From Aequorivita soesokkakensis (GTDB lineage: Bacteria; Bacteroidota; Bacteroidia; Flavobacteriales; Flavobacteriaceae): a stretch of DNA of 64,000 bases. The DNA lies in NCBI RefSeq assembly GCF_001641085.1, contig NZ_LXIE01000049.1:1-64000 (forward strand). The letters are read 5' to 3'. A program made the position numbers and the translations under genes. Below are positions 2,727 to 62,915 of this stretch, piece by piece. Each line of letters starts with the position of its first letter. Position 1 is the first letter of the stretch. The notes beneath the pieces were generated by a model. The model made no database searches. It saw only the letters and a program-made list of their open reading frames with translations, and was not told the origin of the DNA.

Positions 2727-2769
2727 TGATATTTATCATTTCATAAAAAGTAAAGCAAAAGTACTTTTG
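2727..2769 (+). promoter_or_regulatory. FNR/FixK-type site plus -7 box for hemN
   Basis: TGATATTTATCA at 2727-2738 is a full FNR-like palindrome. After 23 nt comes TACTTTTG at 2762-2769, matching TAnnTTTG at all six fixed positions. The inferred start near 2774 puts the palindrome centre at about -41.5 and leaves a 15-nt leader. Confidence 0.8.
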
Positions 2770-2788
2770 GCGCTTTAAGTTAAAAGCC

Positions 2789-4153
2789 ATGCAAAGTAGT
2801 TTAGTTTCAAAATATAACGTTCCCGGCCCGCGCTATACCAGTTATCCCACAGTTCCTTATTGGAACAATGATAATTTCTCTTTGGGGGAATGGAAGAAAA
2901 ACGTATTCCAAAGTTTTTCAGAAAGTAATTCTGCTGAAGGAATAAGTCTCTATATCCACCTGCCGTTTTGCGAAAGTCTCTGCACTTTTTGCGGCTGCAA
3001 CAAACGTATTACTAAAAATCACGGTGTTGAGACCCCCTATTTGGAGTCGGTTTTAAAGGAGTGGCGGCTTTATTTGGAATTATTTCCGGAACGCCCCATA
3101 ATAAAGGAGTTACATTTAGGCGGCGGCACGCCCACCTTTTTTTCCGCAGAAAATTTAAAACTGCTGATAAAGGGAATTTTTCGGGATGCAACTTTTGCCG
3201 AAAACCCTTCTTTCAGTTTTGAAGGCCACCCAAACAATACAAAAGGCGAACATTTGCAAACGCTTTTTGAATGCGGTTTTACCCGTGTTAGTTACGGCGT
3301 GCAGGATTACAATACTACGGTGCAGATTGCAATACACAGGTTGCAACCTTTTGTAAATGTGAAACGAGTTACGGAAACGGCCCGTGAAATTGGCTATACT
3401 TCCGTTGGGCACGATATTATTTTTGGGCTGCCATTCCAAAAAAAGGAACACGTAATCTATTCCATAGAAAAAACGAAGGAATTGATGCCAGACCGGATTG
3501 CGTTTTACAGCTACGCGCACGTGCCGTGGATAAAAGGAAACGGCCAGCGTGGCTTTAAAGAGGAAGATCTGCCCACTGCAGCAGAAAAGCGAGAGATGTA
3601 TGAAACCGGGAAAAAAATGCTGGAAGAGGCAGGCTATATTGAAATTGGGATGGACCACTTTGCGCTAAAAAACGACAGCCTCTACAAAGCTGTGGAAGAA
3701 AAAAAACTGCACCGCAACTTTATGGGCTATACAGATAGTAAAACCCAGTTGATGCTCGGCCTCGGTGTTTCTGCCATTGGCGACAGTTGGTATAGTTTTG
3801 GGCAAAATTCAAAAAATGTGGAGGAATATCAGGAACTGGTTGAAAAGGGAATTCTCCCCGTGTATCGCGGCCATATTTTGAATGAAGAAGATTTAATTAA
3901 CCGCAAACATATTCTGAATATGATGTGCCGTTTGGAAACTTCGTGGGAAGATGTTTCGCTTCAATTTAAGGAATTGCCCGAGACGCTTTCAAAATTGAAA
4001 GAAATGGAAGAGGATGGTTTAATTAAAATCGATTCCACCAAACTTCAGATTACAGAAAAGGGCCGTCCTTTTGTTCGCAATGTGTGTATGGCCTTTGATG
4101 TTCTTTTGCAGCGAAGCCAACCGGAAACGCAGCTCTTTTCAATGACGGTGTAA
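2789..4153 (+). CDS. hemN: Oxygen-independent coproporphyrinogen III dehydrogenase HemN
   Basis: 454 aa, the usual HemN length. The radical-SAM motif is in IHLPFCESLCTFCGCN, giving C-x3-C-x2-C plus the fourth cysteine typical of true HemN rather than HemW. It continues with the GGGTPTF SAM-binding segment and the C-terminal HemN domain. The enzyme converts coproporphyrinogen III to protoporphyrinogen IX without oxygen, supplying heme for the cbb3 oxidase, NorB and c-type cytochromes encoded nearby. It appears to be a single-gene unit with a perfect FNR-type promoter, fitting induction when oxygen is low. The ATG at 2789 lies 15 nt after the inferred transcription start. Confidence 0.95.
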   Translation: MQSSLVSKYNVPGPRYTSYPTVPYWNNDNFSLGEWKKNVFQSFSESNSAEGISLYIHLPFCESLCTFCGCNKRITKNHGVETPYLESVLKEWRLYLELFPERPIIKELHLGGGTPTFFSAENLKLLIKGIFRDATFAENPSFSFEGHPNNTKGEHLQTLFECGFTRVSYGVQDYNTTVQIAIHRLQPFVNVKRVTETAREIGYTSVGHDIIFGLPFQKKEHVIYSIEKTKELMPDRIAFYSYAHVPWIKGNGQRGFKEEDLPTAAEKREMYETGKKMLEEAGYIEIGMDHFALKNDSLYKAVEEKKLHRNFMGYTDSKTQLMLGLGVSAIGDSWYSFGQNSKNVEEYQELVEKGILPVYRGHILNEEDLINRKHILNMMCRLETSWEDVSLQFKELPETLSKLKEMEEDGLIKIDSTKLQITEKGRPFVRNVCMAFDVLLQRSQPETQLFSMTV

Positions 4154-4179
4154 ATTTTTTACAACTTTTTTTCGCATAC

Positions 4180-4222
4180 TGACCTTGGTCATATTTTCAG
4201 AAAAACGATATTCAGACATTTG
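4180..4222 (+). promoter_or_regulatory. FNR/FixK-type site plus -7 box for the porin-nirK operon
   Basis: TGACCTTGGTCA (4180-4191) is a perfect 12-bp palindrome, followed after 23 nt by GACATTTG (4215-4222), five of six matches to TAnnTTTG. The inferred start near 4227 leaves 22 nt before the ATG at 4249. Confidence 0.75.
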
Positions 4223-4248
4223 TATCGTAAAATAAATTGAACCCTAAA

Positions 4249-5532
4249 ATGAACATTTCAAAAAATATTTTCTTCATATTTCTATTTTTTGCAATAACTA
4301 AAACCTACTCACAATTTACCGTGGATGCACAACTGCGCCCGCGTTTTGAGTTTCGTCATGGGTATAAAACGCTTTTTCCGGATGATACAAATCCCGCTGC
4401 ATTTGTTTCACAAAGAACACGATTGAATTTCGGTTATAAAACCGAAAAATTACATTTCTATATAAGTCCGCAAGACGTTCGGATTTGGGGAGATGTGCCA
4501 CAATTAAATGTTGCTGATGAAAATGGTTTCTCCCTGCATCAAGCCTGGGCAGAAATAAAATTAATTAAGGAATTTGACCTAAAAATTGGACGGCAGGAAA
4601 TTGTATATGACGATCAGCGTTTCTTCGGAAATGTTGACTGGGCGCAGCAAGGCCGAAGCCACGACGCCGCAATCCTAAAATTTGAACCTACCTCTTTGAA
4701 ACTTCACCTTGGCGCAGCTTACAATCAAGATGGCGAGGCATTGACCGGAAATATTCTTACCAAGAACACCTACAAAAGTTTTCAATATTTATGGTTTCAT
4801 AAGGATTGGGAAAAACTTTCAGCAAGTTTTCTCTTCTTAAATAACGGTATGCAATATATTGACGAAAATGACGAATCCAAAAACGATACCCGCTTCAGCC
4901 AAACCGCTGGAATTTATTTAAAAGCCAAAGCGAATAAATTCAATTTTGCCTCAAATTTATATTATCAATTCGGGAACGATGTTGCCAATAATGATTTGAG
5001 CGCTTATTTGGTTTCATTGGAAGCAAGTTATTCCGCAATGGAAAATTTAAATTTTACTTTGGGCGGTGAGTTGCAAAGTGGAAATGATTTCGGCGCGCCT
5101 TCAAACGGAAAAAATAAGGCTTTCAATCCGCTTTATGGCACCAATCACAAGTTTAACGGATTTATGGATTACTTCTACGTGGGGAATCATACCAACAACG
5201 TTGGGTTGGTGGATATTTATGGAAATGTGAAATATTCGTTCAATGAAAAATCGAACTTATTCGTTGGCATTCACAAGTTTTTCGCAGCTGCGGAAATTAT
5301 TAATGAAAGTTCAAAATATTTAGGTTTTGAAATAGATTTAGTAACTTCACATAAATTGAGTGAATTTGTGACTGTCCAGGCTGGATATTCACAATTTTTT
5401 GCTTCAAATGGTATTGAAACCGTAAAAAATAATTTTGATGGCAATTCCAATAATTGGGCTTGGGCAATGCTGACCATTGATCCTTTGCTATTTACTTGGC
5501 AAAAACAAGACACACAACCAAATAACCAATAA
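4249..5532 (+). CDS. Outer-membrane beta-barrel porin, alginate-export family type
   Basis: About 427 aa with an N-terminal signal peptide ending near TYSQ, then alternating beta-strand sequence beginning [17 protein letters not shown], typical of the alginate_exp barrel family. Such barrels often precede nirK in Bacteroidetes and may let nitrite or other small solutes across the outer membrane; the substrate here is inference. A TTG four codons upstream (4237) is open, but the ATG at 4249 gives the better signal peptide. The gene is first in an operon with nirK, nirV and a SCO protein, under an FNR-type promoter. Confidence 0.75.
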
Positions 5533-5560
5533 CAATAAAACCAACTTTAAATCGCAAATT

Positions 5561-7027
5561 ATGTATTTAACTATCAAAAAGAATCTTGTAACAAAAATGC
5601 TTCTTGGGCTTGGCGTAGTGGCTTTTCTTTCGAGCTGTGTAAATGACCAATCGGACAAAAAATACAATGACACGGTAGACATTCCCGTGAACCAAGAAAT
5701 GATTGCGGAACTCACTTCGCCACCATTTGTTCCAACTCCAGTTGGAAAACGCATGGCAAAAAAACTGATCGTTGATCTTGAAATCCAAGAACGCGAAGGT
5801 GAAATGACCGACGGCGTTAAATATGTTTATTGGACCTTCGGCGGAACCGTTCCCGGAAGTTTCATCAGAACCCGCGTGGGCGATGAAGTGGAGTTTCACC
5901 TAAAAAACCACCCAGATAATAAGTTGCCGCACAACATTGACCTTCACGCCGTGAACGGTCCCGGCGGTGGCGCGGAATCTTCGTTTGTGGCTCCCGGTCA
6001 CGAAAAGGTGTTTTCCTTTAAAGTGCTGAATCCGGGACTTTATGTTTACCATTGCGCCACCGCGCCAGTGGGAATGCATATTGCCAACGGAATGTATGGG
6101 TTAATTTTAGTGGAACCTGAAGGTGGTTTGGAACCCGTTGACAAAGAATATTACATTATGCAAGGCGATTTTTATACTGAAGGCAAATATGGGGATCGAG
6201 GCCTGCAAGCTTTTGATATGCAAAAAGCAATCAATGAAACTCCAGACTATGTAGTTTTTAACGGCCACGTGGGCGCTATGACCGGGGATAATGCCATAAC
6301 TGCAAAAGTGGGCGAAAAAATTCGCCTCTTTGTAGGGAATGGAGGTCCGGGACTTGTTTCATCCTTCCACGTTATCGGGGAGATTTTTGACAAGGTGCAT
6401 ATTGAAGGCGGAGATATGGTAAATGAAAACGTACAAACCACATTGATTCCTGCCGGCGGTGCGGCAATCGTGGAATTCCGCGTGGATGTTCCGGGTACCT
6501 TTATTTTGGTTGACCACTCTATTTTTAGGGCTTTCAATAAAGGTGCTTTAGCAATGTTAAAAGTGGAAGGCGAAGAAAACAAAACAATCTATTCCGGAGA
6601 AATCCGCGATGGTATCTATCTTCCCGAAGGTGGTGTAATCCAATCTATGCCAACGGGCGGTCCTAAAGTGGAAAAAGAAGAAATGAAAGCTTTAAGCTTT
6701 GAAGAACGAATGACTTTCGGAAAAGATAAATTTATGGCTACCTGTGCTGCTTGCCACCAAGCAAATGGGCAGGGAATTCCCGGAGCCTTTCCTCCTTTGG
6801 CAAAATCAGATTACTTAAATGCTGATGTGGACCGTGCAATCGATATCGTGCTACACGGTAAAACTGGAGAAATTACCGTAAACGGAAAAAAATACAACAG
6901 TGTTATGACCGCACAAGCCCTGTCTGACGAAGAAGTTTCAAACGTACTTACCTATGTTTATAATAGTTGGGGCAATTCCAAAAAAGAAGTTACCCCAGAA
7001 ATGGTGAAAGCCGTTAGAAATAAATAA
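5561..7027 (+). CDS. nirK: Copper nitrite reductase NirK with C-terminal cytochrome c domain, lipoprotein
   Basis: 488 aa from the ATG at 5561. A lipoprotein signal ends FLSSC, followed by two cupredoxin domains. Copper ligands are recognisable: [10 protein letters not shown] supplies the first type 1 histidine, the catalytic aspartate and a type 2 histidine; [16 protein letters not shown] supplies a type 2 His plus type 1 Cys, His and Met; [13 protein letters not shown] supplies the last type 2 His. After about residue 385 a monoheme cytochrome c domain follows (CAACH). It reduces nitrite to NO, and the tethered heme probably delivers electrons directly to the type 1 copper. An upstream in-frame extension lacks a signal peptide and overlaps the porin gene, so it was rejected. 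Confidence 0.95.
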
Positions 7028-11689: not shown

Positions 11690-12664
11690 CTATTTATCTA
11701 ATTCTATACCGTCTGAAACAGTATCATTGTTCGCTTCTGCTTGAGTTGAATCAATTTGTTTAACTTGTAAATTGTCAACGGGAGCATTTGCGTCAACCCA
11801 AATTTCACCTTCGGGAGCTTTTGGCTCAGCGGGTTTGGTACCGTGAAGGCTTAAAACATAACTAGCTACCTGCGCTATTTCACTCGGTTTAAGATCTGTT
11901 TTCCAAGGAATCATTCCTTTTCCGGCACGGCCACCTTCGCTAATGGTATGGAAAACATTTTTGATGCCACCACCCAAAATCCAATAATCATCCGTAAGGT
12001 TTGGGCCTATCCCCCCACCGCCATCATCTTTATGACAGGCTACGCAGTTTGCGGTAAAGACCGCTTTTCCAGCAGCAAGATCGGAAGGTTCCGTCAATAA
12101 TTCTACCGTTTCTGCGTCAATTAAATCTTTGTTGTTTTTCTTAAACTCTGCTATTTCCTTATCTGCAATTGCTACTTCAGTTTCGTATTCGTCTATTTGG
12201 GTTGGGCCGTCAAACACTTCATAATACACAAAATACACAACCGCGAAAACAATTGTAATATAGAAAAGAGATGTCCACCAAGGCGGAAGTTTGTTGTCCA
12301 ACTCGCGAATACCGTCATAATTATGATCCAAAACAATTTCCTGTTCGCTTTCAATAGGCTTGGCGCCGAGCATTTCGGTATATTTTCTTTTAAACCACCC
12401 AAAACGCTTTTGTTGGCGCAACGTTTCGGCAGCTACATAACGTGACTTGGCTTCTTCACTAAGGCCATTATAAAGAATGCGCTGCAATGCTGCTGCAATA
12501 ATTTCCATAGCAATGGCGAAAAAAAACACCATTCCCAACACTGCCCAAATAATTGGATATTTTAATATTGCCCATTCTTCACCCGAATCAACCGTGATTT
12601 CCAGTAGAAAAAAAGCAAGGATCATAAAGCCGATGACTCTTAAATATGAGGCTGTGGTTTTCAT
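11690..12664 (-). CDS. ccoP: cbb3 oxidase subunit III CcoP, single-heme form
   Basis: 324 aa. Two hydrophobic N-terminal spans and the NKLPPWWTSLFYITIVFAV helix, a CcoP hallmark, are followed by a cytochrome c domain with CVACH and a distal methionine in GKGMIPWK. Only one CxxCH is present, whereas textbook CcoP has two; the stretch where the other domain would be is short and charged. The protein carries electrons from c-type donors to CcoO and CcoN. Its ATG overlaps the ccoQ stop (ATGA), indicating coupling. Confidence 0.93.
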   Translation of the reverse strand: MKTTASYLRVIGFMILAFFLLEITVDSGEEWAILKYPIIWAVLGMVFFFAIAMEIIAAALQRILYNGLSEEAKSRYVAAETLRQQKRFGWFKRKYTEMLGAKPIESEQEIVLDHNYDGIRELDNKLPPWWTSLFYITIVFAVVYFVYYEVFDGPTQIDEYETEVAIADKEIAEFKKNNKDLIDAETVELLTEPSDLAAGKAVFTANCVACHKDDGGGGIGPNLTDDYWILGGGIKNVFHTISEGGRAGKGMIPWKTDLKPSEIAQVASYVLSLHGTKPAEPKAPEGEIWVDANAPVDNLQVKQIDSTQAEANNDTVSDGIELDK

Positions 12665-12860: not shown

Positions 12861-15062
12861 CTATTCGTTTTTGGCCGAAGCATCTTCGGTGGTTTCTACT
12901 TTAATATCAGTTCCCAAACGCTGCAAATAAGCAATCAATGCAACAATTTCACGGTTTTTCATGTCTATGAATTCTTCACCGTTTTCTTGTGCATATTTTT
13001 TATCGGCTTCATACGTTTTCGCAAAATCTGGATCTCCATAAAGGTTCTTTTCTATTTTTTCGCCCTGCTCATCCATCAATGTTTGGGCATTTGCAATTTC
13101 TTCTTCAGTATAAGGCACGCCCAAAGAAACCATAGCCCGCATTTTTGCTTCTGTGTCAGATTTATCCAATTCGGAAGTTATCAACCAATTATAGCGCGGC
13201 ATTATAGAACCAGAAGATATGGCTTGCGGATCGTACATGTGGTTTAAGTGCCAAGTGTCTGAATACTTTCCACCCACGCGGTGCAGATCGGGTCCTGTAC
13301 GTTTACTTCCCCAAAGGAATGGGTGGTCATATACATATTCTCCAGATTTTGAATATTCGCCATAGCGTTCCACTTCGCTCCTAAAAGGACGAATCATCTG
13401 CGAATGACAGTTCACACAACCTTCGCGTATATATATATCACGACCTTCCAATTCCAAAGGTGTATAAGGTTTCACGCTGGAAATTTTCGGCACGTAATCA
13501 TCCACCATCAACGAAGGAATAATCTGTACGGCACCTCCAATCAAAATGGCAATAGTTGCGTAAATCGTTAATTTAACCGGACGACGCTCTAACCAAGTGT
13601 GCCATCCTTCGCCAGCGGTTTGTTTTTTGGTTACTGGAGTTAACGGAGCCGCTTCGGCAAGTTCGTCCGTAACTTTGCTGCCTTTTCTGGCTGTCATTAC
13701 AATATTATAAAGCAGAATAAATGCACCTGTTATATAAAGTGTTCCCCCAATGGCGCGCATCCAGTAAAATGGCATGATTTGGGTTACCGTTTCAAGGAAG
13801 TTTGGATATTTAAGTGTTCCATCGGGATCAAACTGATTCCACATAGAAGATTGCATAAATCCTGCAACATACATTGGTAGCGCATACATTATGATACCCA
13901 AAGTACCGATCCAGAAATGTGCGTTTGCCAGTTTAATGGAGTATAATTTTGTCTTGAAAAGCCTTGGAACCAACCAATAGACCATACCAAAAGTCAGGAA
14001 TCCATTCCAAGCAAGTGCTCCAACGTGTACGTGCGCAATAATCCAATCACTAAAGTGGGCAATTGCATTTACGTTTTTGAGCGAAAGCATTGGGCCTTCA
14101 AAAGTTGCCATCCCGTAGCCAGTAATAGCCACAACCATAAATTTCAAAACTGGATCAACACGTACTTTATCCCAAGCGCCACGAAGCGTTAAAAGACCGT
14201 TGATCATACCACCCCAAGACGGAGCCAAAAGCATTACCGAAAAGGCAACGCCCAAGTTCTGCGCCCATTCCGGAAGCGCGGTGTACAACAAGTGGTGCGG
14301 ACCTGCCCAGATATAAATAAAGATCAAAGACCAAAAGTGAACGATAGAAAGTCGGTAGGAATATACCGGTCTGTTTGCCGCTTTCGGTACAAAATAATAC
14401 ATCAACCCTAGGAAAGGAGTTGTAAGGAAAAACGCTACCGCATTATGCCCATACCACCATTGCACCAACGCATCCTGTACGCCAGCATACATTGAATAAC
14501 TTTTTAAAGCAGTTACGGGAATGGCCATACTGTTCACAATATGCAAAACGGCTACGGTCACCCAAGTTCCCAAGTAGAACCAAAGCGCAACGTAAAGATG
14601 GCGTTGGCGTCTTTTCACCATTGTCATAATCAAGTTCACACCAAAAGCTACCCAGATTACTGCAATTGCAACGTCAAAAGGCCACTCTAGCTCAGCATAT
14701 TCCTTTGATGTGGTATAACCCAATGGCAACGTAATGGCAGCACCAACAATAATGGCTTGCCAACCCCAGAAGTTTAAATTACTTAAAAAGTCGCTCCACA
14801 TACGTGCCTTCAGCAACCGTTGCGAAGAATAATAAACCCCTGCGAAAATTGCGTTCCCAACAAAAGCAAAAATAACGGCGTTGGTGTGCAACGGTCTCAA
14901 ACGACCAAAACTTAGCCAGGAAATACCTTCCGTCATATTAGGGAACAAAAACAAAAAAGCCAGAAATAAGCCAACACTCATCCCGATGAGTCCCCAAAAA
15001 ATGGTCGCATTGATGAATTTTTTGACAATCTGGTTGTCGTAGTAAAACTGTTCTGTTTGCAT
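12861..15062 (-). CDS. ccoNO: Fused cbb3 cytochrome oxidase subunits I and II (CcoN-CcoO)
   Basis: 733 aa. The first 490 residues or so form the CcoN heme-copper core: WWYGHNAVAFF holds the CuB histidine and IIAHVHVGALAWNG the heme histidines. After a link near residue 500 the CcoO module follows: an anchor helix, then GCVNCHSQMIRPF and the surrounding CcoO pattern. The fusion of the catalytic and monoheme subunits is known from Bacteroidetes. The enzyme reduces oxygen with high affinity and pumps protons, so it suits microaerobic growth beside denitrification. It follows ccoS by 13 nt. Confidence 0.96.
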   Translation of the reverse strand: MQTEQFYYDNQIVKKFINATIFWGLIGMSVGLFLAFLFLFPNMTEGISWLSFGRLRPLHTNAVIFAFVGNAIFAGVYYSSQRLLKARMWSDFLSNLNFWGWQAIIVGAAITLPLGYTTSKEYAELEWPFDVAIAVIWVAFGVNLIMTMVKRRQRHLYVALWFYLGTWVTVAVLHIVNSMAIPVTALKSYSMYAGVQDALVQWWYGHNAVAFFLTTPFLGLMYYFVPKAANRPVYSYRLSIVHFWSLIFIYIWAGPHHLLYTALPEWAQNLGVAFSVMLLAPSWGGMINGLLTLRGAWDKVRVDPVLKFMVVAITGYGMATFEGPMLSLKNVNAIAHFSDWIIAHVHVGALAWNGFLTFGMVYWLVPRLFKTKLYSIKLANAHFWIGTLGIIMYALPMYVAGFMQSSMWNQFDPDGTLKYPNFLETVTQIMPFYWMRAIGGTLYITGAFILLYNIVMTARKGSKVTDELAEAAPLTPVTKKQTAGEGWHTWLERRPVKLTIYATIAILIGGAVQIIPSLMVDDYVPKISSVKPYTPLELEGRDIYIREGCVNCHSQMIRPFRSEVERYGEYSKSGEYVYDHPFLWGSKRTGPDLHRVGGKYSDTWHLNHMYDPQAISSGSIMPRYNWLITSELDKSDTEAKMRAMVSLGVPYTEEEIANAQTLMDEQGEKIEKNLYGDPDFAKTYEADKKYAQENGEEFIDMKNREIVALIAYLQRLGTDIKVETTEDASAKNE

Positions 15063-15299: not shown

Positions 15300-15342
15300 C
15301 AAAAATATTATTGCAAGAGGCCTTAAAATATGACATCCGTCA
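15300..15342 (-). promoter_or_regulatory. FNR/FixK-type site plus -7 box for ccoS-NOQPGH
   Basis: On the minus strand TGACGGATGTCA (15331-15342) is followed after 23 nt by TATTTTTG (15300-15307), a perfect TAnnTTTG. The leader would be 13 nt. The left half-site contains the TGA stop codon of ccoI, so the promoter is built into the gene junction. Confidence 0.8.
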
Positions 15343-17751
15343 ACTTTGCTTATTTATATCCATTCTTAATTTCTTCCCAATATATTGTGTGGCGATTGTG
15401 GTAAAAACAACAATACTAATGGAACTCAAAGGCATCAAAATAGCCGCAACTACTGGTTTTAAATGTCCCGTTACCGCAAACGACAAACCAACCAAGTTGT
15501 AAAACAGGGAAAGCAGGAATGCCCATTTTATAATCTGCACACCTTTTTTTGAAAAATTCAAATAATCGCCAATCTTTTTGAATTGGGAAGCGTCCAAAAT
15601 TCCATCACAAGCGGGTGAAAAAACGTTTGTGTTTTCTGAAACAACAAACCCTACATTACTTTGCTTCAAAGCTCCGGCATCGTTCAGTCCATCGCCTATC
15701 ATCAAAACTTGCTTTCCGTTCTGCTGAAGGTTTTTTATAAAATTGAGTTTATCATCCGGTTTTTGGTTGAAATGGAGTTTTGTGCCTTTTGGCAGCAGCG
15801 CTTCCAAACGTTCGCGCTCGCCTTCGTTGTCGCCGGAAAGCACGATTACTTCCTTATCGGTTCCCAGCTGTTTAAAAATCTGCGCAACGCCTTTTCTGTA
15901 TTCGCTGTTGAAAATATAACAACCTTTATAAACCCTATTGGCGCTGATGTGAACGGTGGTCCTATTTTTAAATTCTGAATTGGTTTCATCAGAAAACCCA
16001 ACAAATTCATACGAACCCACTTTTATTGAATTGTGATTGAAAGTTGCGGTAATCCCCTTCCCTACTTCTTCCTCAAAATCGTCCAAGGTTTGGATGTCAT
16101 TTTTGTCGAGAATATTGTAAAGCGAACGGCTCAAAGGGTGGCTGGAAGCGCGAAGTGTGCTGGTGAGCAGTTGTTTTTCTTCAGCAGAAAGCGCGACACC
16201 TTCATAAGTAATCAGGTTTTTTTGGTTTGTTGTCAACGTTCCGGTTTTGTCAAAAACTACGGTATCCAACTTCGCCATTTGCTCGATTACGGAAGCTTCC
16301 TTTAAATATAATTTTTCCCTTCCGAAGATTCGAAGCACGTTGCCCAAAGTGAAGGGTGCCGCAAGCGCAATGGCGCACGGACAGGCAACAATTAAAACCG
16401 AAGTGAACACATTAAAAGCTTTTGAAGGATCAACCATCAACCAAAAAATGGTGGAAATAAAGGCAATGGAAAGCAATACGACGGTAAAACGCTTGCTGAT
16501 ATTATCGGTTATATTTTCAAAAACGCCCGTTTTATCCTTGCTGAAAACGTCGTTGCTCCAAAGTTGCGTTAAGTAACTTTGGGCCACGGGTTTTAAAACC
16601 TCAACCTCTAAAATTCCTGCCTGTTGCTTGCCCCCCGCGAAGAGTTTGTCGCCGCTTTGTTTGGAAATTGGCTCAGCTTCGCCCGTAACGAAACTGTAAT
16701 CTATCAGCGCATTTCCTTTTATCAAAATGGCATCGACGGGAATTATTTCATTATTTCGAATTAATAATCTATCGCCTTTTTTTACGGTGTAAACTTCAGC
16801 TTGCTCCTCCACCGTTTTCCCCTCGGAATTTTTAAAAAGTCGCGTAACGGCAATGGGAAAATAGGATTTGTAATCGCGCTCAAAAGAGAGATAGCTGTAG
16901 GTTTTCTGCTGAAAAAATTTCCCAAGCAATAAAAAGAAAACCAAGCCCGAGAGGCTGTCAAAAAAACCAGTGCCCAAATTGAAAACAATGTCAATCGTAC
17001 TTCGTATAAAAAGAACGGCAATTCCCAAAGCGATTGGCACGTCTATATTCAAAATTTTGGAACGCAGACCTTTGTATGCCGAAACAAAATAACCACTTCC
17101 CGAATAAAAGACCACGGGCAGCGAAAACGCAAACATCAGCCAGCGGAAAAAGGGCTTAAATTGGTCGAGCCAAAATTCGGAATGTTCAAAATATTCGGGG
17201 AAGGAAAGAAACATGATGTTTCCAAAGGCGAAGCCAGCTATTCCCAATTTATAAATCAGGCTTCGGTTTATGTTTTTCTCCTTTTTATCGGAATCGTCCA
17301 ATGAAATGTAGGGTTCGTAACCAATTCGGCTTAAAAGAATTACTAAATTTTTCAGCGAATTCTCTTCGGCAGAAAAGGTTATCCGAACCGTTTTTTCCGG
17401 AAAATTTACCTGTGAGGATTTTACGGAAGGATTTAGTTTATTAAGATTTTCAAGAATCCAAATACAACTGCTGCAATGGATGGAAGGGATTAAAAAAGAA
17501 ACGATTTGTGTAGTTCCGTCGTTAAATTCGAGCAGTTTTTCAACAATGGTTTCATTGTCGAGAAAGTCATATTTGCCAGCAATTTCCTTTGGGGAAATGC
17601 CGGGGTTTTTTTCAAGATCGTAATAATAGCTTAAATCGTTATCGTGCAGAATATCGTAAACGGTTTTGCAGCCGTGGCAGCAGAACGATTTTTCATCGTG
17701 CTTAATTTCAACGTCCAAACACGCATCACCGCAGTGGAAACAGTTTACCAT
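15340..17751 (-). CDS. ccoI: Copper-translocating P-type ATPase CcoI/FixI
   Basis: 803 aa. An N-terminal cysteine cluster (CFHCGDAC and CCHGCKTVY, residues 4-31) precedes a heavy-metal domain with CSSC, then the P1B ATPase core: CPCAIALAAPF in the membrane, the phosphorylated DKTGTLT and the GDGLNDAGALKQSNVG hinge. It exports copper towards the periplasm for cbb3 oxidase assembly and perhaps also for NirK and NosZ. A TTG one codon upstream is open, but the ATG at 17751 is preferred. It has its own FNR-type promoter separate from that of ccoS. Confidence 0.95.
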   Translation of the reverse strand: MVNCFHCGDACLDVEIKHDEKSFCCHGCKTVYDILHDNDLSYYYDLEKNPGISPKEIAGKYDFLDNETIVEKLLEFNDGTTQIVSFLIPSIHCSSCIWILENLNKLNPSVKSSQVNFPEKTVRITFSAEENSLKNLVILLSRIGYEPYISLDDSDKKEKNINRSLIYKLGIAGFAFGNIMFLSFPEYFEHSEFWLDQFKPFFRWLMFAFSLPVVFYSGSGYFVSAYKGLRSKILNIDVPIALGIAVLFIRSTIDIVFNLGTGFFDSLSGLVFFLLLGKFFQQKTYSYLSFERDYKSYFPIAVTRLFKNSEGKTVEEQAEVYTVKKGDRLLIRNNEIIPVDAILIKGNALIDYSFVTGEAEPISKQSGDKLFAGGKQQAGILEVEVLKPVAQSYLTQLWSNDVFSKDKTGVFENITDNISKRFTVVLLSIAFISTIFWLMVDPSKAFNVFTSVLIVACPCAIALAAPFTLGNVLRIFGREKLYLKEASVIEQMAKLDTVVFDKTGTLTTNQKNLITYEGVALSAEEKQLLTSTLRASSHPLSRSLYNILDKNDIQTLDDFEEEVGKGITATFNHNSIKVGSYEFVGFSDETNSEFKNRTTVHISANRVYKGCYIFNSEYRKGVAQIFKQLGTDKEVIVLSGDNEGERERLEALLPKGTKLHFNQKPDDKLNFIKNLQQNGKQVLMIGDGLNDAGALKQSNVGFVVSENTNVFSPACDGILDASQFKKIGDYLNFSKKGVQIIKWAFLLSLFYNLVGLSFAVTGHLKPVVAAILMPLSSISIVVFTTIATQYIGKKLRMDINKQS

Positions 17752-17781
17752 CAATCTAAAATTTGCTCGTTATACCTGCTG

Positions 17782-17824
17782 CAAAGGTTGGGAATGATTG
17801 TGGTTTGAAAAATGACAAATGTCA
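17782..17824 (-). promoter_or_regulatory. FNR/FixK-type site plus -7 box for ccoI
   Basis: TGACATTTGTCA on the minus strand (17813-17824) is followed after 23 nt by AACCTTTG (17782-17789), five of six matches. The leader to the ATG at 17751 would be 26 nt. Confidence 0.75.
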
Positions 17825-19899: not shown

Positions 19900-19929
19900 T
19901 TTTTCTGAATTTTTACGAATAATACTCTG

Positions 19930-19972
19930 CAAATTTCAGAAGAAAGGAAGGAATAAAATATGACCTAAATCA
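19930..19972 (-). promoter_or_regulatory. FNR/FixK-type site plus -7 box for ric
   Basis: TGATTTAGGTCA (minus strand, 19961-19972), a 23-nt gap, then GAAATTTG (19930-19937), five of six matches. The inferred start near 19925 leaves 26 nt to the ATG and excludes the TTG at 19932. Confidence 0.7.
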
Positions 19973-22275: not shown

Positions 22276-22290
22276 GTTTTTAATTTTATG

Positions 22291-22333
22291 CAAAGGTTGG
22301 ATATCTTGTCGATTCTGAATATGATTTTAGTCA
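22291..22333 (-). promoter_or_regulatory. FNR/FixK-type site plus -7 box for the CoA-transferase
   Basis: TGACTAAAATCA (minus strand, 22322-22333) then, after 23 nt, AACCTTTG (22291-22298), identical to the ccoI -7 box. Leader 11 nt to the ATG at 22275. Confidence 0.7.
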
Positions 22334-27432: not shown

Positions 27433-27506
27433 TAAAAATACCGCTTCATACTTGCCCTAAATATGATATTTATCAGTTTTTAAGATAAATGTATCTTTTA
27501 ATTTCG
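27433..27506. promoter_or_regulatory. Divergent FNR/FixK-type promoter serving norC and the acyl-CoA synthetase
   Basis: One palindrome TGATATTTATCA (27464-27475) has a -7-like element 23 nt away on both sides: TATTTTTA on the minus strand (27433-27440, five of six) for norC and TAATTTCG on the plus strand (27499-27506, five of six) for the gene at 27563. Leaders are 18 and 52 nt. Confidence 0.7.
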
Positions 27507-27562
27507 CGAATGCTCAAACTAGAGACGATTTCGATTTTAGTTTGGATTTCACTTTCAAAATT

Positions 27563-31525: not shown

Positions 31526-31568
31526 TAAAGTTGAGAAATCCAGAAATCAAAGATTATGACCAAAGTCA
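31526..31568 (-). promoter_or_regulatory. FNR/FixK-type site upstream of the 603-aa protein gene
   Basis: TGACTTTGGTCA (minus strand, 31557-31568) is a perfect palindrome. The -7 position 23 nt on reads CAACTTTA (31526-31533), only four of six matches, so the promoter may depend strongly on the activator. Leader 25 nt. Confidence 0.6.
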
Positions 31569-31985: not shown

Positions 31986-32444
31986 ATGAGAAAAACACTC
32001 ACTTTTACAGTTATAATCTTTTCGGTTATCACATCTTCTTGTGAAGATGGCAGAATAACTGACTTGGAAAATTCTGTATCGGAATTAACCGAATTGAACT
32101 CTAAATTGATAGACTCGATTCAAACCTTACAAGAAAAAAACATATCTTCTTTTTATCTGATAGAGAATTTAGATAATGATAATTTCAAAGTAAATGAAAC
32201 TAGTAAAATTCATTTCGATTTCGGATATAAAAATTACGTTTCAGAATATGATGTTTACAGATTATATGGTAAAAATCATGAAGAAAGAGAGTTGATTTTA
32301 AAAAATCAAAGATTAAGTGAATTTGATTTTGAGTTTAAGCCCGAAAATATTGATGATGATAGAATTAAACTCGAAGTGGTTATGAATATCAACGGAATTG
32401 AATGGATTATCCCAGCCGATTTTCAAATTAATGTGACTGAATAA
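31986..32444 (+). CDS. Cassette-borne lipoprotein of unknown function
   Basis: 152 aa: a lipoprotein signal (ITSSC), a heptad-like stretch of about 35 residues rich in Leu, Ser and Glu that may form a short coiled coil, then a beta-rich domain. No family recognised. It is bracketed by the inverted sequences GTTGCCCACA (31974-31983) and TGTGGGCAAC (32450-32459), the arrangement expected of a mobile single-gene cassette. Base and codon use are more AT-rich than in the flanking respiratory genes. Confidence 0.6.
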   Translation: MRKTLTFTVIIFSVITSSCEDGRITDLENSVSELTELNSKLIDSIQTLQEKNISSFYLIENLDNDNFKVNETSKIHFDFGYKNYVSEYDVYRLYGKNHEERELILKNQRLSEFDFEFKPENIDDDRIKLEVVMNINGIEWIIPADFQINVTE

Positions 32445-37878: not shown

Positions 37879-37890
37879 TGATAAAAATCA
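37879..37890. promoter_or_regulatory. Orphan TGA-N6-TCA palindrome after nosZ
   Basis: TGATAAAAATCA lies between the nosZ stop and the hairpin. At the standard distance on the minus strand there is only the GC-rich hairpin, not a -7 box, so it is probably not an active promoter of this kind. Confidence 0.35.
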
Positions 37891-41099: not shown

Positions 41100-41142
41100 C
41101 AAAATTAGCCATCAGAACAGACACAGAATATGATTTTTATCA
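41100..41142 (-). promoter_or_regulatory. FNR/FixK-type site plus -7 box for the nos operon
   Basis: TGATAAAAATCA (minus strand, 41131-41142), a 23-nt gap, then TAATTTTG (41100-41107), six of six matches. The leader is 20 nt. Confidence 0.8.
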
Positions 41143-41242: not shown

Positions 41243-41285
41243 TGAGGAAAATCATTTTTAAAGGAATTAATAGACCTTATTTTTG
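41243..41285 (+). promoter_or_regulatory. FNR/FixK-type site plus -7 box for the USP at 41312
   Basis: TGAGGAAAATCA (41243-41254) followed after 23 nt by a perfect TATTTTTG (41278-41285). The half-sites are intact but the inner bases are less symmetric than elsewhere. Leader 22 nt. Confidence 0.65.
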
Positions 41286-42892: not shown

Positions 42893-42935
42893 TAAACTTA
42901 AAGTATTTCCTCAAGCTTATATATGACATTCATCA
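42893..42935 (-). promoter_or_regulatory. FNR/FixK-type site plus -7 box for the lipoprotein at 42149
   Basis: TGATGAATGTCA (minus strand, 42924-42935), 23 nt, then TAAGTTTA (42893-42900), five of six matches. The leader of about 107 nt is much longer than in the other members, so this one is less certain. Confidence 0.5.
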
Positions 42936-55257: not shown

Positions 55258-56103
55258 TTATCTAGGTAGATTTTGAAGTACTAAAAAAGGAATATCTATT
55301 TTCAATCCTATTTTTTCAATGGTGGATTGATATAGTATGTTTTCCAGATAAGAATGGCGCGTATTGACCATCACCAGCATATCAATGGGATTTTCAATTA
55401 TAAAAGTATTGATGGCTTTAGTAACATTTGTACCGCTCTTTTGATGGAAATTGATTTGGTTATCACAGAAGGAAGCTTCCAAAAATTTCTTGTTATCCTG
55501 CTGCCGCAAAGAAAGTGAAGGAAATTTTGAAACGTAAAGGAAATCAACTTTGGAAACAAAGCATTTTGCAATACTGCTCACCAATTTTAATTCACGGCGT
55601 TTGTATGGCAATTGATAATCTGTGGGAAACAATATATTCTTTGGATGCACATCGCCATAAACTGCCGGAATAGCATGTACGGGACATTTTACATATTTAA
55701 TTACCTGAAGCGTGTTGCTGCCGAAGGTTATCTTTTTATCGGCAGTTTCGCCTTTAGTGCCCATAACCACCACATCTATATTTTCTTTTTCCACCCAGTC
55801 ATTTACTGAATCTACCAGCAAACCAAATTCTGCAATGGTGTGTATATTGTGTTTCGGGTTTGGTGAAAAACTGAGGATTTGCTTCTCTGTTTCCTCCAAA
55901 TTATCTTTCGCTTTTTGAAGTGCTTTTTGCTGCAATTCCTCAAAAACCGAATCAGCCAGTCGAGCTTTATCTTCATAGACCGATTCAGAAAAGGCGTGAA
56001 GCAAATAAATTTCAGAACGGTCATATTTAAAAAGCTCTGTGGCATACTTTATTGCGTTCATTGAATTTTCAGAGAAATCAATTGGGATTAAAACTTTTCG
56101 CAT
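55258..56103 (-). CDS. Tandem universal stress protein, first gene of its operon
   Basis: 281 aa, opening MRKVLIPIDFSENSMNAIKYAT, with the nucleotide loop GTKGETADKKITFGSNTLQVI in domain 1 and a degenerate second domain starting ILFPTDYQLPYKRREL. It leads a six-gene transcript: three USPs, ATP-cone nuclease and beta-CASP protein (five if the convergent end at 51301 is counted as the last). The promoter is FNR-type. Confidence 0.88.
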   Translation of the reverse strand: MRKVLIPIDFSENSMNAIKYATELFKYDRSEIYLLHAFSESVYEDKARLADSVFEELQQKALQKAKDNLEETEKQILSFSPNPKHNIHTIAEFGLLVDSVNDWVEKENIDVVVMGTKGETADKKITFGSNTLQVIKYVKCPVHAIPAVYGDVHPKNILFPTDYQLPYKRRELKLVSSIAKCFVSKVDFLYVSKFPSLSLRQQDNKKFLEASFCDNQINFHQKSGTNVTKAINTFIIENPIDMLVMVNTRHSYLENILYQSTIEKIGLKIDIPFLVLQNLPR

Positions 56104-56129: not shown

Positions 56130-56172
56130 TAAAGTTAACCATTCCACTTCAAAAAAAGTATGATAAATATCA
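56130..56172 (-). promoter_or_regulatory. FNR/FixK-type site plus -7 box for the USP-nuclease operon
   Basis: TGATATTTATCA (minus strand, 56161-56172), 23 nt, then TAACTTTA (56130-56137), five of six. Leader 22 nt. Confidence 0.75.
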
Positions 56173-56544: not shown

Positions 56545-57384
56545 CTATTCATGAAGCACCAAAAAAGGAATTTTAGTGTGGTAACTAATTGATTTCACGG
56601 TTGGACGGAAGAGCAATCGCTGTATAAAATTCAGGTTTTTTGCAACCATGGCAATCATATCTATTTCCCAAGTTTCCACAAATTCCTGTATTCCAGCCTC
56701 AATGTTTTTGCTTTCCAAAAAATGGAAACTGTGCTTGGTTTCCTTTAAAAAATCCTGAAGAAATCCTTTGTTTTCCATCTGTGTATGGGTAAATTCGTGA
56801 TTAGTGGATTTTATATTTAGAATTCGCAACGCGGCTTTTTGTAGTTTCAAGGTTTCATAAATGGTATTAATTACACGGTTTTTATACATGCAATTATAGT
56901 CTGTGGGGAACGCCACATTTTTAATTTTAGTAAATTTCGCGTGCTCAGGAATTACCAATACGGGACATTTCACTTTTGTAATTACTTCACTGGTATTGCT
57001 GCCAATTTCGTTACGGTTCATTTTTGAAGATCCTTTGGTTCCCATTAAAATATAATGGATTTCCTTTTCGGAAACATATTTTCTGATCGCTTCCACCAAC
57101 AATATATTTTCATGCAACGGATAAAAAACATGATTTGGATTCTTAGCAAGTAACCTGCAGGTTTTCAGTTCTTCTTTTAAAAGTGCGCCTGGGCTATGTA
57201 TAGTGTGGTTTTCTGCAAATTCCTCAAAAAAACCTTCGGGTTCTTCGTCTTGGTAATGTGGAGTTTTAAGCGAAACATGAAGAATATAAAAATTCACGGG
57301 AATATCCGCAAAATAATCCAACGCATACCGCAAGGCATTGTGTGAATTCTCAGAGAAATCTGTCGGGATTAAAACATTCTTCAT
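56545..57384 (-). CDS. Tandem universal stress protein
   Basis: 279 aa, MKNVLIPTDFSENSHNALRYAL, with the loop GTKGSSKMNRNEIGSNTSEVI in domain 1; domain 2 begins VAFPTDYNCMYKNRVI. It has its own FNR-type promoter and no close partner downstream, so it is a single-gene unit. Confidence 0.88.
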   Translation of the reverse strand: MKNVLIPTDFSENSHNALRYALDYFADIPVNFYILHVSLKTPHYQDEEPEGFFEEFAENHTIHSPGALLKEELKTCRLLAKNPNHVFYPLHENILLVEAIRKYVSEKEIHYILMGTKGSSKMNRNEIGSNTSEVITKVKCPVLVIPEHAKFTKIKNVAFPTDYNCMYKNRVINTIYETLKLQKAALRILNIKSTNHEFTHTQMENKGFLQDFLKETKHSFHFLESKNIEAGIQEFVETWEIDMIAMVAKNLNFIQRLLFRPTVKSISYHTKIPFLVLHE

Positions 57385-57403: not shown

Positions 57404-57446
57404 CAAAAATATCTGTATGGGTCGGTTCAGAAAATGATAAAAATCA
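57404..57446 (-). promoter_or_regulatory. FNR/FixK-type site plus -7 box for the USP at 56545
   Basis: TGATTTTTATCA (minus strand, 57435-57446), 23 nt, then a perfect TATTTTTG (57404-57411). Leader 15 nt. Confidence 0.8.
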
Positions 57447-59770: not shown

Positions 59771-59778
59771 CAAAAGTA
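59771..59778 (-). promoter_or_regulatory. -7 box implying a leaderless kinase transcript
   Basis: TACTTTTG on the minus strand matches TAnnTTTG exactly; the usual 12-nt distance puts +1 on the A of the kinase ATG. The nearby palindrome (59804-59815) is 25 nt rather than 23 nt away from it. Confidence 0.45.
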
Positions 59779-59803
59779 AGGATTTTAAACAGTTTTCACG
59801 AAC

Positions 59804-59846
59804 TGATTTATGTCATAAAATTTCACGTAAAAACCCTTTAGTTTTA
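59804..59846 (+). promoter_or_regulatory. FNR/FixK-type site plus -7 box for the TerB-like gene
   Basis: TGATTTATGTCA (59804-59815), 23 nt, then TAGTTTTA (59839-59846), five of six matches. Leader 26 nt. The site lies in the gap shared with the kinase gene and may also affect it. Confidence 0.7.
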
Positions 59847-59876: not shown

Positions 59877-60284
59877 ATGGGAACTATAGATAAACCCCAA
59901 CTCCTGTTTTACCAGAAAATGGGAGAGCTTTTCTATTCCATTGCGGCGGCAGATAATGTGGTGCGAAAAGCGGAATATGAAGCTTTAAAAAGAAACGTTG
60001 CCGAACAATGGAAAGATCTTGATGATTATGAGGATGGTTTCCACACCGATGCTGCATACCAAATTGAAGTGGTTTTTGACTGGTTTGATTATGAACAGCT
60101 GGACGCCAATGACTGCTTTGAAAGTTTTGCGGATTATAAAAAGGAAAACCAAAAGCTCTTCACAGAAGAGCGAAAGAAACTTATTTGGAAAACCGCAAAC
60201 GCGATTGCAAATGCCTTTTCGGGAAAAAACAAAAACGAACTGATTATACTGGCAAAGCTGAAAATGCTTTTGGAAGAATCGTAA
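59877..60284 (+). CDS. TerB-like protein
   Basis: 135 aa, all helical, with LFYSIAAADNVVRKAEYEALKRNV, the helix-acidic-loop pattern seen in tellurite-resistance TerB-like domains. No membrane segment or signal. Members are associated with metal or membrane stress; a precise role cannot be given. Divergent from the kinase gene and controlled by the FNR-type site between them. Confidence 0.65.
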   Translation: MGTIDKPQLLFYQKMGELFYSIAAADNVVRKAEYEALKRNVAEQWKDLDDYEDGFHTDAAYQIEVVFDWFDYEQLDANDCFESFADYKKENQKLFTEERKKLIWKTANAIANAFSGKNKNELIILAKLKMLLEES

Positions 60285-61608: not shown

Positions 61609-61633
61609 AGTAAATTCTTCCCTATTTCCCATA

Positions 61634-61670: not shown

Positions 61671-61699
61671 CGGTGTTAATTGTTGTCGATAGCAATTAA

Positions 61700-62536
61700 C
61701 TATACTTTAAAAGTCATCACTGGCAAATCTGAATGGTTTACCACATCTTCGCCGATACTTCCGGAGAAAAAGTGCGCCAAGCCTTGACGGCCTTGGGTTG
61801 GCAAAGCGATAATATCTGCATTGCTCACTTGGCTATAACCGAAAATGCCAGCTTCCACAGAATATTCATTGTATTGGATCACTTTGTTTAAGGTTTCAAG
61901 TGGATTCGGTTCTCCGGCATCTTTCAAAAAGCTGAGAATTCGTTTTTCAATTTCTCGGGTGCTGCGGAAATCGCCTGCAAGATTCACGTAAAGCATTTGC
62001 ATATTTATTCCTAAAGTATCAAATAGCTTTTGCGCGCGCTTGTATGGGCCAATTGAATTTTCCAGAAAATCGCAAGCAAATACGCCAATTTCAGGATTGA
62101 AATTTTCGTGGCGGTGTTTTATTACCAAAACTGGTATATCAGAAGTGCGCACTACTTTTTCAGTATTGCTTCCAACGAAGACCTCTTTTAAACCAGAACT
62201 TCCGTGAGACCCCATTACAATTAAATCTGCTTCAAACTCGCGGGCAACATCGTTCAATTCACTAAAAATTTTATAATTGTGCACGGCATCCGTTACCTTA
62301 ATTCCTTCCAAATAGTCTTTGTCCAGAAATTCAGCAAAACGCTTTTCAGCCAATTTCATATAGTACATAGCCTCAAAAACCTCTTTGCTTTCATCGCGCG
62401 TTACAACAGCGTCGCTAAGCCCCATCATGTGCAGCGCTACTATTTCAGCATTTTGCTTTTTTGCGATGTTTGCTGCAACTTCCAGCGCATATTCTGAATG
62501 GTTGGAAAAATCTACGGGAACTAATATTTTTTTCAT
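61700..62536 (-). CDS. Tandem universal stress protein
   Basis: 278 aa. Domain 1 (MKKILVPVDFSNHSEYALEV) has an intact nucleotide loop GSHGSSGLKEVFVGSNTEKVV; domain 2 starts near IGVFACDFLEN and keeps a loop-like LPTQGRQGLAHFFSGSIGEDV. The two domains are better preserved than in the other USPs here. It lies 10 nt after the hibernation factor and shares its promoter. Confidence 0.9.
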   Translation of the reverse strand: MKKILVPVDFSNHSEYALEVAANIAKKQNAEIVALHMMGLSDAVVTRDESKEVFEAMYYMKLAEKRFAEFLDKDYLEGIKVTDAVHNYKIFSELNDVAREFEADLIVMGSHGSSGLKEVFVGSNTEKVVRTSDIPVLVIKHRHENFNPEIGVFACDFLENSIGPYKRAQKLFDTLGINMQMLYVNLAGDFRSTREIEKRILSFLKDAGEPNPLETLNKVIQYNEYSVEAGIFGYSQVSNADIIALPTQGRQGLAHFFSGSIGEDVVNHSDLPVMTFKV

Positions 62537-62546
62537 GATTTTGAGT

Positions 62547-62846
62547 TTAATGGGTTGTGAATTTTGCTTTTCGTTTTTTTAGCTGTTTTTCAATATCTGA
62601 AATGGTTTCTTTTGCGGCTGCCTCAAAACTCTCCTTTGTTGAAGTAGCGAAGATTTTTGGTCCTGGCAGACTAAGTTCTATTTCGCAAATATTGCCTTTG
62701 CCATAATTATTGTTTTCAAGCTTAAAACTTACATCGGCTCTAATTAGCCATTCATATTTTTCACCCAGCTTTTTGAGTTTTTTTCCAACGAACTCGTTCA
62801 TCGCTTCACTGGTAGGCATTTTCACGTATTGAATGTTTATAGTCAT
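62547..62846 (-). CDS. hpf: Ribosome hibernation promoting factor (HPF/RaiA family, short form)
   Basis: 99 aa with the S30AE pattern: MTINIQYVKMPTSEAMNEFVGKKLKKL at the start, ADVSFKLENNNYGKGNICEIELSLPGPKIFA in the middle, and FEAAAKETISDIEKQLKKRK at the end. It binds the 30S subunit and stores ribosomes in inactive form. Pairing with a USP and an FNR-type promoter suggests ribosome storage when oxygen runs out. Confidence 0.92.
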   Translation of the reverse strand: MTINIQYVKMPTSEAMNEFVGKKLKKLGEKYEWLIRADVSFKLENNNYGKGNICEIELSLPGPKIFATSTKESFEAAAKETISDIEKQLKKRKAKFTTH

Positions 62847-62872
62847 AATTTCCTGAATTGGTTTCTATTTTT

Positions 62873-62915
62873 CAAATATAGCTCTTATTAAGAGCATTTA
62901 AAATGACCAAAGTCA
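62873..62915 (-). promoter_or_regulatory. FNR/FixK-type site plus -7 box for hpf-USP
   Basis: TGACTTTGGTCA (minus strand, 62904-62915) is a perfect palindrome identical to the one before the 603-aa gene; 23 nt on comes TATATTTG (62873-62880), six of six. Leader 22 nt. Confidence 0.8.

Follow-up and report, generated by a model that had tools for sequence, protein, structure and literature searches.

The stretch of DNA considered here, hereafter the window, comprises the first 64,000 bases of contig C49 (143,940 bases) of Aequorivita soesokkakensis, whose 3.19 Mb genome is distributed over 51 contigs. Its intergenic and junction DNA contains sixteen TGA-N6-TCA palindromes of FNR type, and it encodes a fusion of a receiver with a CRP/FNR-type transcription factor, P0001, adjoined by a PAS-bearing histidine kinase, P0002. 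The fusion, not named in the original prediction that singled out the palindromes, is probably the regulator acting through them, as judged from sequence. Exactly 23 nucleotides (nts) beyond fifteen of the palindromes (N23, the site-to-box spacing) lies a −7 box resembling TAnnTTTG, scored by how many of its six fixed positions are matched. One palindrome serves two divergent genes, so that the fifteen sites carry sixteen boxes: six match at six positions, nine at five, and one at four. These counts had been put forward before and were reproduced exactly on recounting, as were leaders of 11–26 nts in fourteen promoters and of 52 and 107 nts in two. The proposed site centre of about −41.5 likewise agrees with a box at −12 to −5, its position as mapped in Flavobacterium psychrophilum (PMC9723704). 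A fixed site-to-box distance with a centre near −41.5 is the hallmark of a class II CRP/FNR promoter and is found at all 16 promoters, which would place them in that class. The features, with family names from Pfam and NCBIfam searches unless attributed below to context or to inspection by eye, are as follows.

Promoter 1, 2727..2769, plus strand: palindrome at 2727, N23, box TACTTTTG (6/6); hemN, 2789–4153; leader 15 nts
Promoter 2, 4180..4222, plus strand: palindrome at 4180, box GACATTTG (5/6); outer-membrane protein, 4237–5532, then nirK–cytochrome c, 5477–7027; leader 22 nts
Promoter 3, 15300..15342, minus strand: palindrome at 15331, box 6/6; 68-aa ccoS-like open reading frame (ORF; leader 13 nts), fused ccoNO, 12861–15062, ccoP, 11690–12664, ccoG, ccoH
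Promoter 4, 17782..17824, minus strand: palindrome at 17813, box AACCTTTG (5/6); heavy-metal/copper P-type ATPase, 15340–17754; leader 26 nts
Promoter 5, 19930..19972, minus strand: palindrome at 19961, box GAAATTTG (5/6); RIC/YtfE di-iron iron–sulfur repair protein, 19174–19932; leader 26 nts
Promoter 6, 22291..22333, minus strand: palindrome at 22322, box AACCTTTG (5/6); acetyl-CoA hydrolase/CoA-transferase family gene, 21007–22293; leader 11 nts
Promoter 7, 27464..27506, plus strand: palindrome at 27464, box TAATTTCG (5/6); acetate-CoA-ligase-like gene, 27542–29620; leader 52 nts
Promoter 8, 27433..27475, minus strand: palindrome of promoter 7 (27464), box TATTTTTA (5/6); cytochrome c and NorB-like subunit, 27410–25573, nadA, nadB, thioredoxin; leader 18 nts
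Promoter 9 (weak), 31526..31568, minus strand: palindrome at 31557, box CAACTTTA (4/6); 603-aa protein, 29685–31496; leader 25 nts
Promoter 10, 41100..41142, minus strand: palindrome at 41131, box 6/6; cytochrome c, fasciclin, clade II nosZ, 37924–39891; leader 20 nts
Promoter 11, 41243..41285, plus strand: palindrome at 41243, box 6/6; universal stress protein, 41312–42139; leader 22 nts
Promoter 12 (weakly conserved), 42893..42935, minus strand: palindrome at 42924, box TAAGTTTA (5/6); 210-aa protein, 42149–42781, lipoprotein-like by eye; leader 107 nts
Promoter 13, 56130..56172, minus strand: palindrome at 56161, box TAACTTTA (5/6); universal stress protein, 55258–56103; leader 22 nts
Promoter 14, 57404..57446, minus strand, in the gap after the regulator gene: palindrome at 57435, box 6/6; universal stress protein, 56545–57384; leader 15 nts
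Promoter 15, 59804..59846, plus strand: palindrome at 59804, box TAGTTTTA (5/6); 135-aa gene, 59877–60284, divergent from the kinase gene; leader 26 nts
Promoter 16, 62873..62915, minus strand: palindrome at 62904, box 6/6; S30AE/HPF ribosome hibernation factor, 62547–62846, and universal stress protein, 61700–62536; leader 22 nts
Sixteenth intergenic palindrome, 37879..37890: no −7 box at N23 on either strand
P0001, 57480–58619, minus strand: receiver + cNMP_binding + HTH_Crp_2 fusion, the proposed regulator
P0002, 58534–59766, minus strand: histidine kinase with PAS, HisKA and HATPase domains, adjoining P0001
Off-register site, 59771..59815, minus strand: palindrome of promoter 15 read on the other strand, box TACTTTTG (6/6) at N25, centre about −43.5, before the kinase–regulator operon

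The constant spacing, the chief argument of the original prediction, lies well beyond chance. The window holds 38 palindromes in all, where 19.0 are expected and the richest of 100 shuffles has 30. Counting the same site and box at every spacing, N23 yields six 6/6 matches and 16 of at least 5/6 (the latter raised by an extra 5/6 match on the back strand of the 41243 palindrome), against means of 0.03 and 0.75 at other spacings, whose largest counts are 1 and 3. Two hundred dinucleotide shuffles of the window average 0.035 and 0.47 such matches, again with maxima of 1 and 3. Over the whole contig C49, with coding DNA defined by simple calls of ORFs of at least 90 aa, a box of at least 5/6 stands at N23 beside 20 of 46 intergenic site-orientations versus 3 of 82 coding ones, and a 6/6 box beside nine and none, respectively. 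The check proposed with the original prediction, whether the composite motif is equally common in shuffled or coding DNA, thus found it far rarer in both. Genome-wide, 41 exact matches occur over spacings 9–38, 12 of them at N23 and 29 spread over the 29 other spacings; with one mismatch allowed there are 66, versus 25 for a reversed pattern. Nine of the 12 exact N23 matches fall on C49, which makes up 4.5% of the genome (binomial p 1.5e-10), so the regulon is physically clustered. Further promoters lie on C49 beyond the window, at 66396, 101026, 108155 and 110779, and elsewhere in the genome matches precede what look, by eye, like proline dehydrogenase, ferredoxin-NADP reductase and phosphofructokinase genes. 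At the level of 4/6 or better the contrast in the window is weak (22 at N23, while other spacings average 5.7 and reach 11), so the 31557 promoter is not secured by its box; it stands on its conservation, itself thin, with an orthologue, likewise 4/6, in one of three congener stretches.

Conservation of the geometry in relatives extends this picture. Among 74 best-matching genes from three congeners and five named loci, 63 are preceded by the palindrome together with a box of at least 5/6 at exactly N23; four of the remaining regions have a 4/6 box and seven have no palindrome. The congeners alone keep palindrome and box in 41 of 44 regions. These 74 regions are not all independent, given that L106 and G159 share identical sites and at least one site is counted twice (L105), and some of the universal stress protein matches in the named loci, at 30–40% identity, may be paralogues. 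While the spacer sequences diverge widely between relatives, N23 stays fixed. Equally persistent are certain departures from the box consensus: AA or GA for TA at the metal ATPase, ric, CoA-transferase and nirK operon promoters, and a final A at usp2 and the 135-aa gene, are kept in all three congeners. Such gene-specific variants suggest that promoter strength is tuned.

A broader sample comprises 80 named loci with the fusion gene (1.47 Mb), kept from at least 584 relatives and taking in Flavobacteriaceae, Hymenobacter, Pontibacter, Larkinella, Pedobacter and Chitinophagaceae. They contain 120 exact N23 matches, where other spacings average 1.65, an excess which implies that in many relatives the regulator gene sits amid its presumed targets; 23 loci, mostly distant or short, have no exact match. 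With two near locus ends left out, 118 of these sites give the consensus cTGAY-N4-RTCAT, flanked by T-rich sequence between −35 and −30; besides site and flank it includes no conserved −33 element. Two lesser peaks, at N45 and N12, were considered as spacing noise and rejected as such. The 15 exact boxes at N45 (in L146 and loci from L159 to L184, fourteen of them in more distant loci with less than 50% identity to the regulator) reflect pairs of palindromes 22 bp apart, the downstream one often degenerate, with centres about −63.5 and −41.5; tandem binding at such pairs is possible. The N12 peak stems mostly from kinase-gene promoters, which account for five of its nine cases (in Arenibacter and Pricia). 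A phylum-wide scan of 395 genomes found 153 that match an extended pattern, in which a T follows the site; the family of the window is rich in it, and the most-sampled other family, f32, is almost empty. The largest counts in the scan, 24 and 27 with none for the reversed control, came from G421 and G454, both of the distant family f61.

Among 99 NCBIfam matches to the proposed regulator P0001, none of the best 25 spans the whole fusion, each lying within either the receiver or the CRP part. The latter belongs to the CRP/FNR superfamily by both its domains (PF00027, 6e-16; PF13545, 4.9e-13; both above cut-off) and matches the stand-alone Crp/Fnr protein of Protein Data Bank (PDB) entry 2gau at 3.8e-14. 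The receiver (PF00072, 2.9e-28) has E38, D39, D82 and K134 invariant in eight aligned rows; we take these to be the acidic pocket (E38/D39), the phospho-acceptor aspartate (D82) and the conserved receiver lysine (K134). The frame probably opens too early, with the true start near residue 31 rather than at its first methionine. The recognition helix, ATESxIR, is that of five of six aligned cysteine-bearing FNR proteins (Cys-FNR) from related genomes, and P0001 lacks all four cysteines (C4, C7, C53, C106) that are invariant in five of five aligned Cys-FNR rows. Stand-alone FNR of related genomes has an N-terminal CxxC in each of 30 FNR loci examined, and some distant fusions (L053, L054, L055, L058) keep a cysteine near the fourth place. 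A tree was built from 67 rows, among them 40 of the 79 usable loci and 15 of the 30 FNR loci; in it a single branch with support 89/99 parts fusions from Cys-FNR. Its deeper branching is rough, and L011, a further CRP/FNR protein of this genome, groups with the fusions on a long branch of its own. The closest named relative is from Aequorivita todarodis, at 83% identity over the regulator. Two congeners, G154 (L248) and G166 (L221), carry a second, distant receiver–CRP fusion, 38–41% identical to P0001 and each with a kinase beside it.

The kinase is a steady companion of the fusion. A kinase homologue precedes the fusion gene in 77 of the 80 named loci, the misses being L136 and L177, whose contigs start near the gene, and L158. 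The PAS domain of P0002 is most similar to heme sensors: 13 of the 14 distinct PDB sequences matched at E ≤ 1e-6 are heme domains of DosP or FixL. In the alignment, His67 and Arg87 fall on His77 and Arg97 of DosP, and DosP Met95 is a histidine in P0002; in DosP, these residues bind heme or its ligand. The histidine is kept in 73 of the 77 named loci with a PAS match, as the sixth most conserved PAS column, and the distal residue varies among relatives (R, L, M and others). The PDB matches and the aligned residues support, but do not prove, a heme oxygen sensor in the PAS domain of P0002.

The distribution of regulators and promoters was followed through 28 genomes of the genus, 21 of the family, and 148 of the order; in the latter two sets, Cys-FNR was counted as present at a profile match of E ≤ 1e-40. 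No stand-alone Cys-FNR was found by this profile in the 28 genus genomes. In 27 of them the best match lies within a frame of 346–385 aa, which is the fusion itself; besides the genome under study, 26 carry a full-length relative at 72–86% identity with receiver, CRP part, and the kinase gene before it. Two further matches of 230 aa belong to L011-type proteins of G158 and G161, which lack CxxC. The 27 genomes with the fusion have 6–20 exact promoter matches each (reversed control, 0–4), and G153, the sole genome without it, has none. Within the family, 18 of 21 genomes match the Cys-FNR profile, and the three that do not (the present genome, G039, and G102) all carry the fusion, with 12, 10 and 5 exact promoter matches and reversed controls of 0, 1 and 0. 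Across the order, where 64 of 148 genomes match the profile, matches per Mb amount to 2.84 with the fusion only (n = 3), 2.94 with both regulators (13), 1.88 with Cys-FNR only (51), and 0.79 with neither (81). Genomes with neither regulator exceed the reversed pattern 3.4-fold (81 versus 24 matches); since this pattern undercounts chance, other spacings, shuffles and regulator-free genomes are taken as background. That these promoters share one FNR-type class II design and form one regulon is supported by the controls for spacing, shuffling, coding DNA, orthologues and distribution among genomes.

The promoter of the kinase–regulator operon departs from this register. The original prediction had assigned the 59804 site to the small plus-strand gene; the same palindrome also faces the kinase–regulator operon, at N25. 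Its position makes autoregulation possible. The register before the kinase gene is 24–25 in L106, L107, L108, L111, L112 and L116, and 10–12, inside the promoter, in L113, L114, L115, L117, L119, L120, L125, L133 and L166; among these, L113, L114, L115, L117, L119 and L133 cover Arenibacter, Maribacter and Pricia, where it is 11–12. Seven loci (L129, L143, L148, L161, L168, L169, L176) have a box of at least 5/6 at N23, and others show no clear register. In part of the fusion family, the regulator thus appears to set its own promoter apart from those of its targets.

It is quite probable, then, that these are class II promoters activated by the phosphorylated fusion under the control of the adjacent heme-PAS kinase. 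An FNR-type dimer, most likely of P0001, would bind cTGAY-N4-RTCAT centred at −41.5 and contact RNA polymerase at the TAnnTTTG box, from −12 to −5, of promoters presumably built for the vegetative sigma factor of Bacteroidota. The kinase most likely switches the dimer on by phosphotransfer, and its FixL/DosP-like PAS domain would bind heme and through it sense low oxygen (or nitric oxide, NO). In a single step, the signal could thereby reach cbb3 oxidase, hemN, nirK, nor-like, nosZ, iron–sulfur repair, and NAD synthesis genes, together with CoA-linked energy metabolism, universal stress proteins, and the hibernation factor. The regulon would probably unite microaerobic respiration, reduction of nitrite to N2, and survival. 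A bolder proposal, for and against which we see the case as evenly balanced, is that an old, Bacteroidota-wide receiver–FNR family acts as the master low-oxygen switch where iron–sulfur FNR is missing, a heme-PAS kinase phosphorylating an FNR directly so that two proteins cover both sensing and promoter control. It would work through an N23 grammar rigid enough for a regulon to be read from sequence, with gene-specific −7 variants kept to tune output and, in part of the family, an off-register promoter of its own under another kind of control.

The DNA is AT-rich, the motif is short, and single other spacings in the window do reach three matches of at least 5/6, so that chance or composition might be suspected behind the site–box pattern; spacing, shuffle, coding and orthologue controls refute this, leaving it a practically negligible probability. 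The promoters might instead be real class II promoters served by a one-component CRP/FNR protein encoded elsewhere, with the fusion regulating something else. Besides P0001, the genome has six HTH_Crp_2 matches, of which one, L015, is ParB and was set aside as such, while L012, L013 and L014 dropped out on account of their recognition helix and size. L011 (C1:300623) has a recognition helix, RVETVIR, whose E..R fits TGA/TCA by eye, and orthologues in other genus members with none seen in G153, so that within the genus its distribution does not separate it from the fusion. G102 does separate them, as it keeps five promoter matches and has no L011 orthologue among its nine HTH_Crp_2 (PF13545) matches, each of which was translated. 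L010 (C49:105342), which shares the contig of the window, and L013 have orthologues in G153 (59% and 82%), which has no promoter matches, and so are insufficient for the motif to persist. The fusion, for its part, has the recognition helix common to Cys-FNR. L010, L011 and L013 are unlikely regulators of these promoters, and the one-component explanation as a whole is improbable. As an observation apart, L010 carries a CC motif, its recognition helix reads TSRVVVSR, and it also has orthologues in G039 and G102.

Two other alternatives keep the fusion as regulator and alter either its signal or its sign. The kinase may sense something other than oxygen through heme, such as NO, redox or quinone state, or another PAS ligand. 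The NO-handling genes in the regulon (RIC, nor-like) and the variable distal heme residue would fit such a signal, whereas the specific similarity of the PAS domain to heme sensors, the suitability of cbb3, hemN and stress genes for oxygen limitation, and the induction of cbb3 and heme synthesis under oxygen limitation in F. psychrophilum, as described in PMC9723704, speak for oxygen; a different signal is possible, if doubtful. Alternatively, the unphosphorylated fusion could repress rather than the phosphorylated form activate. A kinase-operon site at N25 here and at N10–12 in Arenibacter, Maribacter and relatives is placed as a blocking site would be, but hundreds of target sites are fixed at −41.5, where class II activators bind, and no −33 element beyond site and T-rich flank is conserved in the promoters, making repression quite unlikely.

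Several observations weigh against activation by a heme-controlled fusion. G153 also lacks FixO, and hence its cbb3 oxidase, so that targets and regulator were lost together and it was rejected as a clean natural knock-out; at the regulator-free rate of 0.79 per Mb, moreover, about two matches would have been expected there. Only three genomes of the order have the fusion without Cys-FNR, and of the 64 counted as having Cys-FNR, three (G015, G044, G072) were included on weaker matches, at 1e-46 to 1e-53, which could be paralogues. Genomes with Cys-FNR only carry the same promoters, which means that the motif alone does not name its regulator. The distal PAS arginine is kept in just 48 of 77 loci, and a conserved histidine alone does not prove heme. 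The off-register palindrome before the kinase operon implies that autoregulation need not be activation. Finally, promoters 9 and 12 are weak.

Among known systems, the FixL–FixJ–FixK cascade of Alphaproteobacteria, as described in PMC4999443, likewise has a heme kinase, a two-component step, a CRP/FNR end, and cco and hemN among its targets. In Caulobacterales, FnrN was lost and replaced by FixLJ–FixK (PMC4999443). Cys-FNR is missing here much as FnrN is there. Whereas FixJ switches on a separate FixK gene, the receiver in P0001 is fused to the CRP/FNR domain itself, so the transcriptional relay is missing; the P0002–P0001 pair is best read as the cascade shortened to two proteins. FixJ consists of a receiver and a LuxR/GerE-type HTH output, a type absent from P0001, whose output is cNMP_binding plus HTH_Crp_2. 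With [4Fe-4S] FNR, the system shares the site type, the centre at −41.5, the recognition helix (that of related Cys-FNR), and a respiratory regulon; it differs in lacking the cluster cysteines and in the Bacteroidota TAnnTTTG form of its −7 box. The PAS domain of P0002 resembles those of DosP and FixL in sequence and in its aligned histidine and arginine, but DosP, a phosphodiesterase, figures in the PDB as an oxygen sensor protein rather than a kinase.

Within the phylum, the one-component HcpR, PgRsp and CrpPg of Porphyromonas gingivalis belong to the same superfamily as P0001; HcpR uses heme to sense NO, binding its signal directly, and the parts of these reports that were covered make no mention of a receiver domain for any of the three (PMC12750200, PMC6955866, PMC12040651). 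No account of a receiver–CRP/FNR regulator or of such a promoter in Bacteroidota was found in the covered parts of the openly accessible literature, which does not establish its absence from print; two surveys of two-component systems do not name CRP or FNR in their main text (PMC6365647, PMC4558063), and one Flavobacteriales CRP/FNR homologue has been assigned to MalR-like carbon sensing (PMC8510549). The promoter class is of a known kind with a Bacteroidota box, and it is the probable receiver–FNR control that would be new. Flavobacteriia are abundant in soil, marine, and fresh water, and cbb3 oxidases and clade II nosZ are frequent among them; the literature search found little on the regulation of either in this class. 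The composite motif lets a regulon for low oxygen and nitrous oxide reduction be read from sequence in many genomes, and the fusion offers a testable case of a respiratory regulon that keeps its promoters while its sensor shifts from an iron–sulfur protein to a two-component system.

The genes downstream of the promoters were named with differing firmness. hemN, for oxygen-independent coproporphyrinogen III oxidase (TIGR00538, above cut-off), keeps its promoter in three of three congeners, as does the nirK operon, including the G at the first box position; its copper nitrite reductase (TIGR02376, 345.9 bits, cut-off 296.3) is fused to a cytochrome c domain. Fused ccoNO (NF011053) and RIC/YtfE (TIGR03652) are also above cut-off, and ccoP, ccoG and ccoH follow from Pfam FixP_N, FixG_C and FixH. 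By place and size the 68-aa ORF is ccoS-like, and by context the P-type ATPase is FixI/CcoI-like and the heme-copper subunit at 27410–25573 would be NorB-like, having matched the COX1 family only, with ccoN below cut-off. Clade II nosZ is secure (TIGR04246, 942.7 bits, cut-off 625), with nosL, D and F nearby, to which the unit of promoter 10 perhaps extends. Since nirK–cytochrome c and nosZ share one presumed regulon, the contig probably encodes reduction of nitrite to N2. The regulon as originally drawn thereby gains the genes for nitrite reductase, a nitric-oxide-reductase-like protein and nitrous oxide reductase. The unit of promoter 13 perhaps takes in the universal stress protein genes that follow it, and six such proteins are among the genes named in the presumed regulon. 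Promoter 12 recurs in three congeners as one 5/6 box, one 4/6 box, and one region without a palindrome. The 603-, 210- and 135-aa targets have no Pfam or NCBIfam family match; the 135-aa gene is present in 33 of the 80 regulator loci with its promoter conserved, and the 603-aa protein has a single homologue among them (L184, 48%). Outside the regulon, an ORF of 261 aa at 32619–33404, with no Pfam match at 1e-5, shows by eye two CxxC motifs and an HNH-like stretch and adjoins a 152-aa ORF at 31986–32444.

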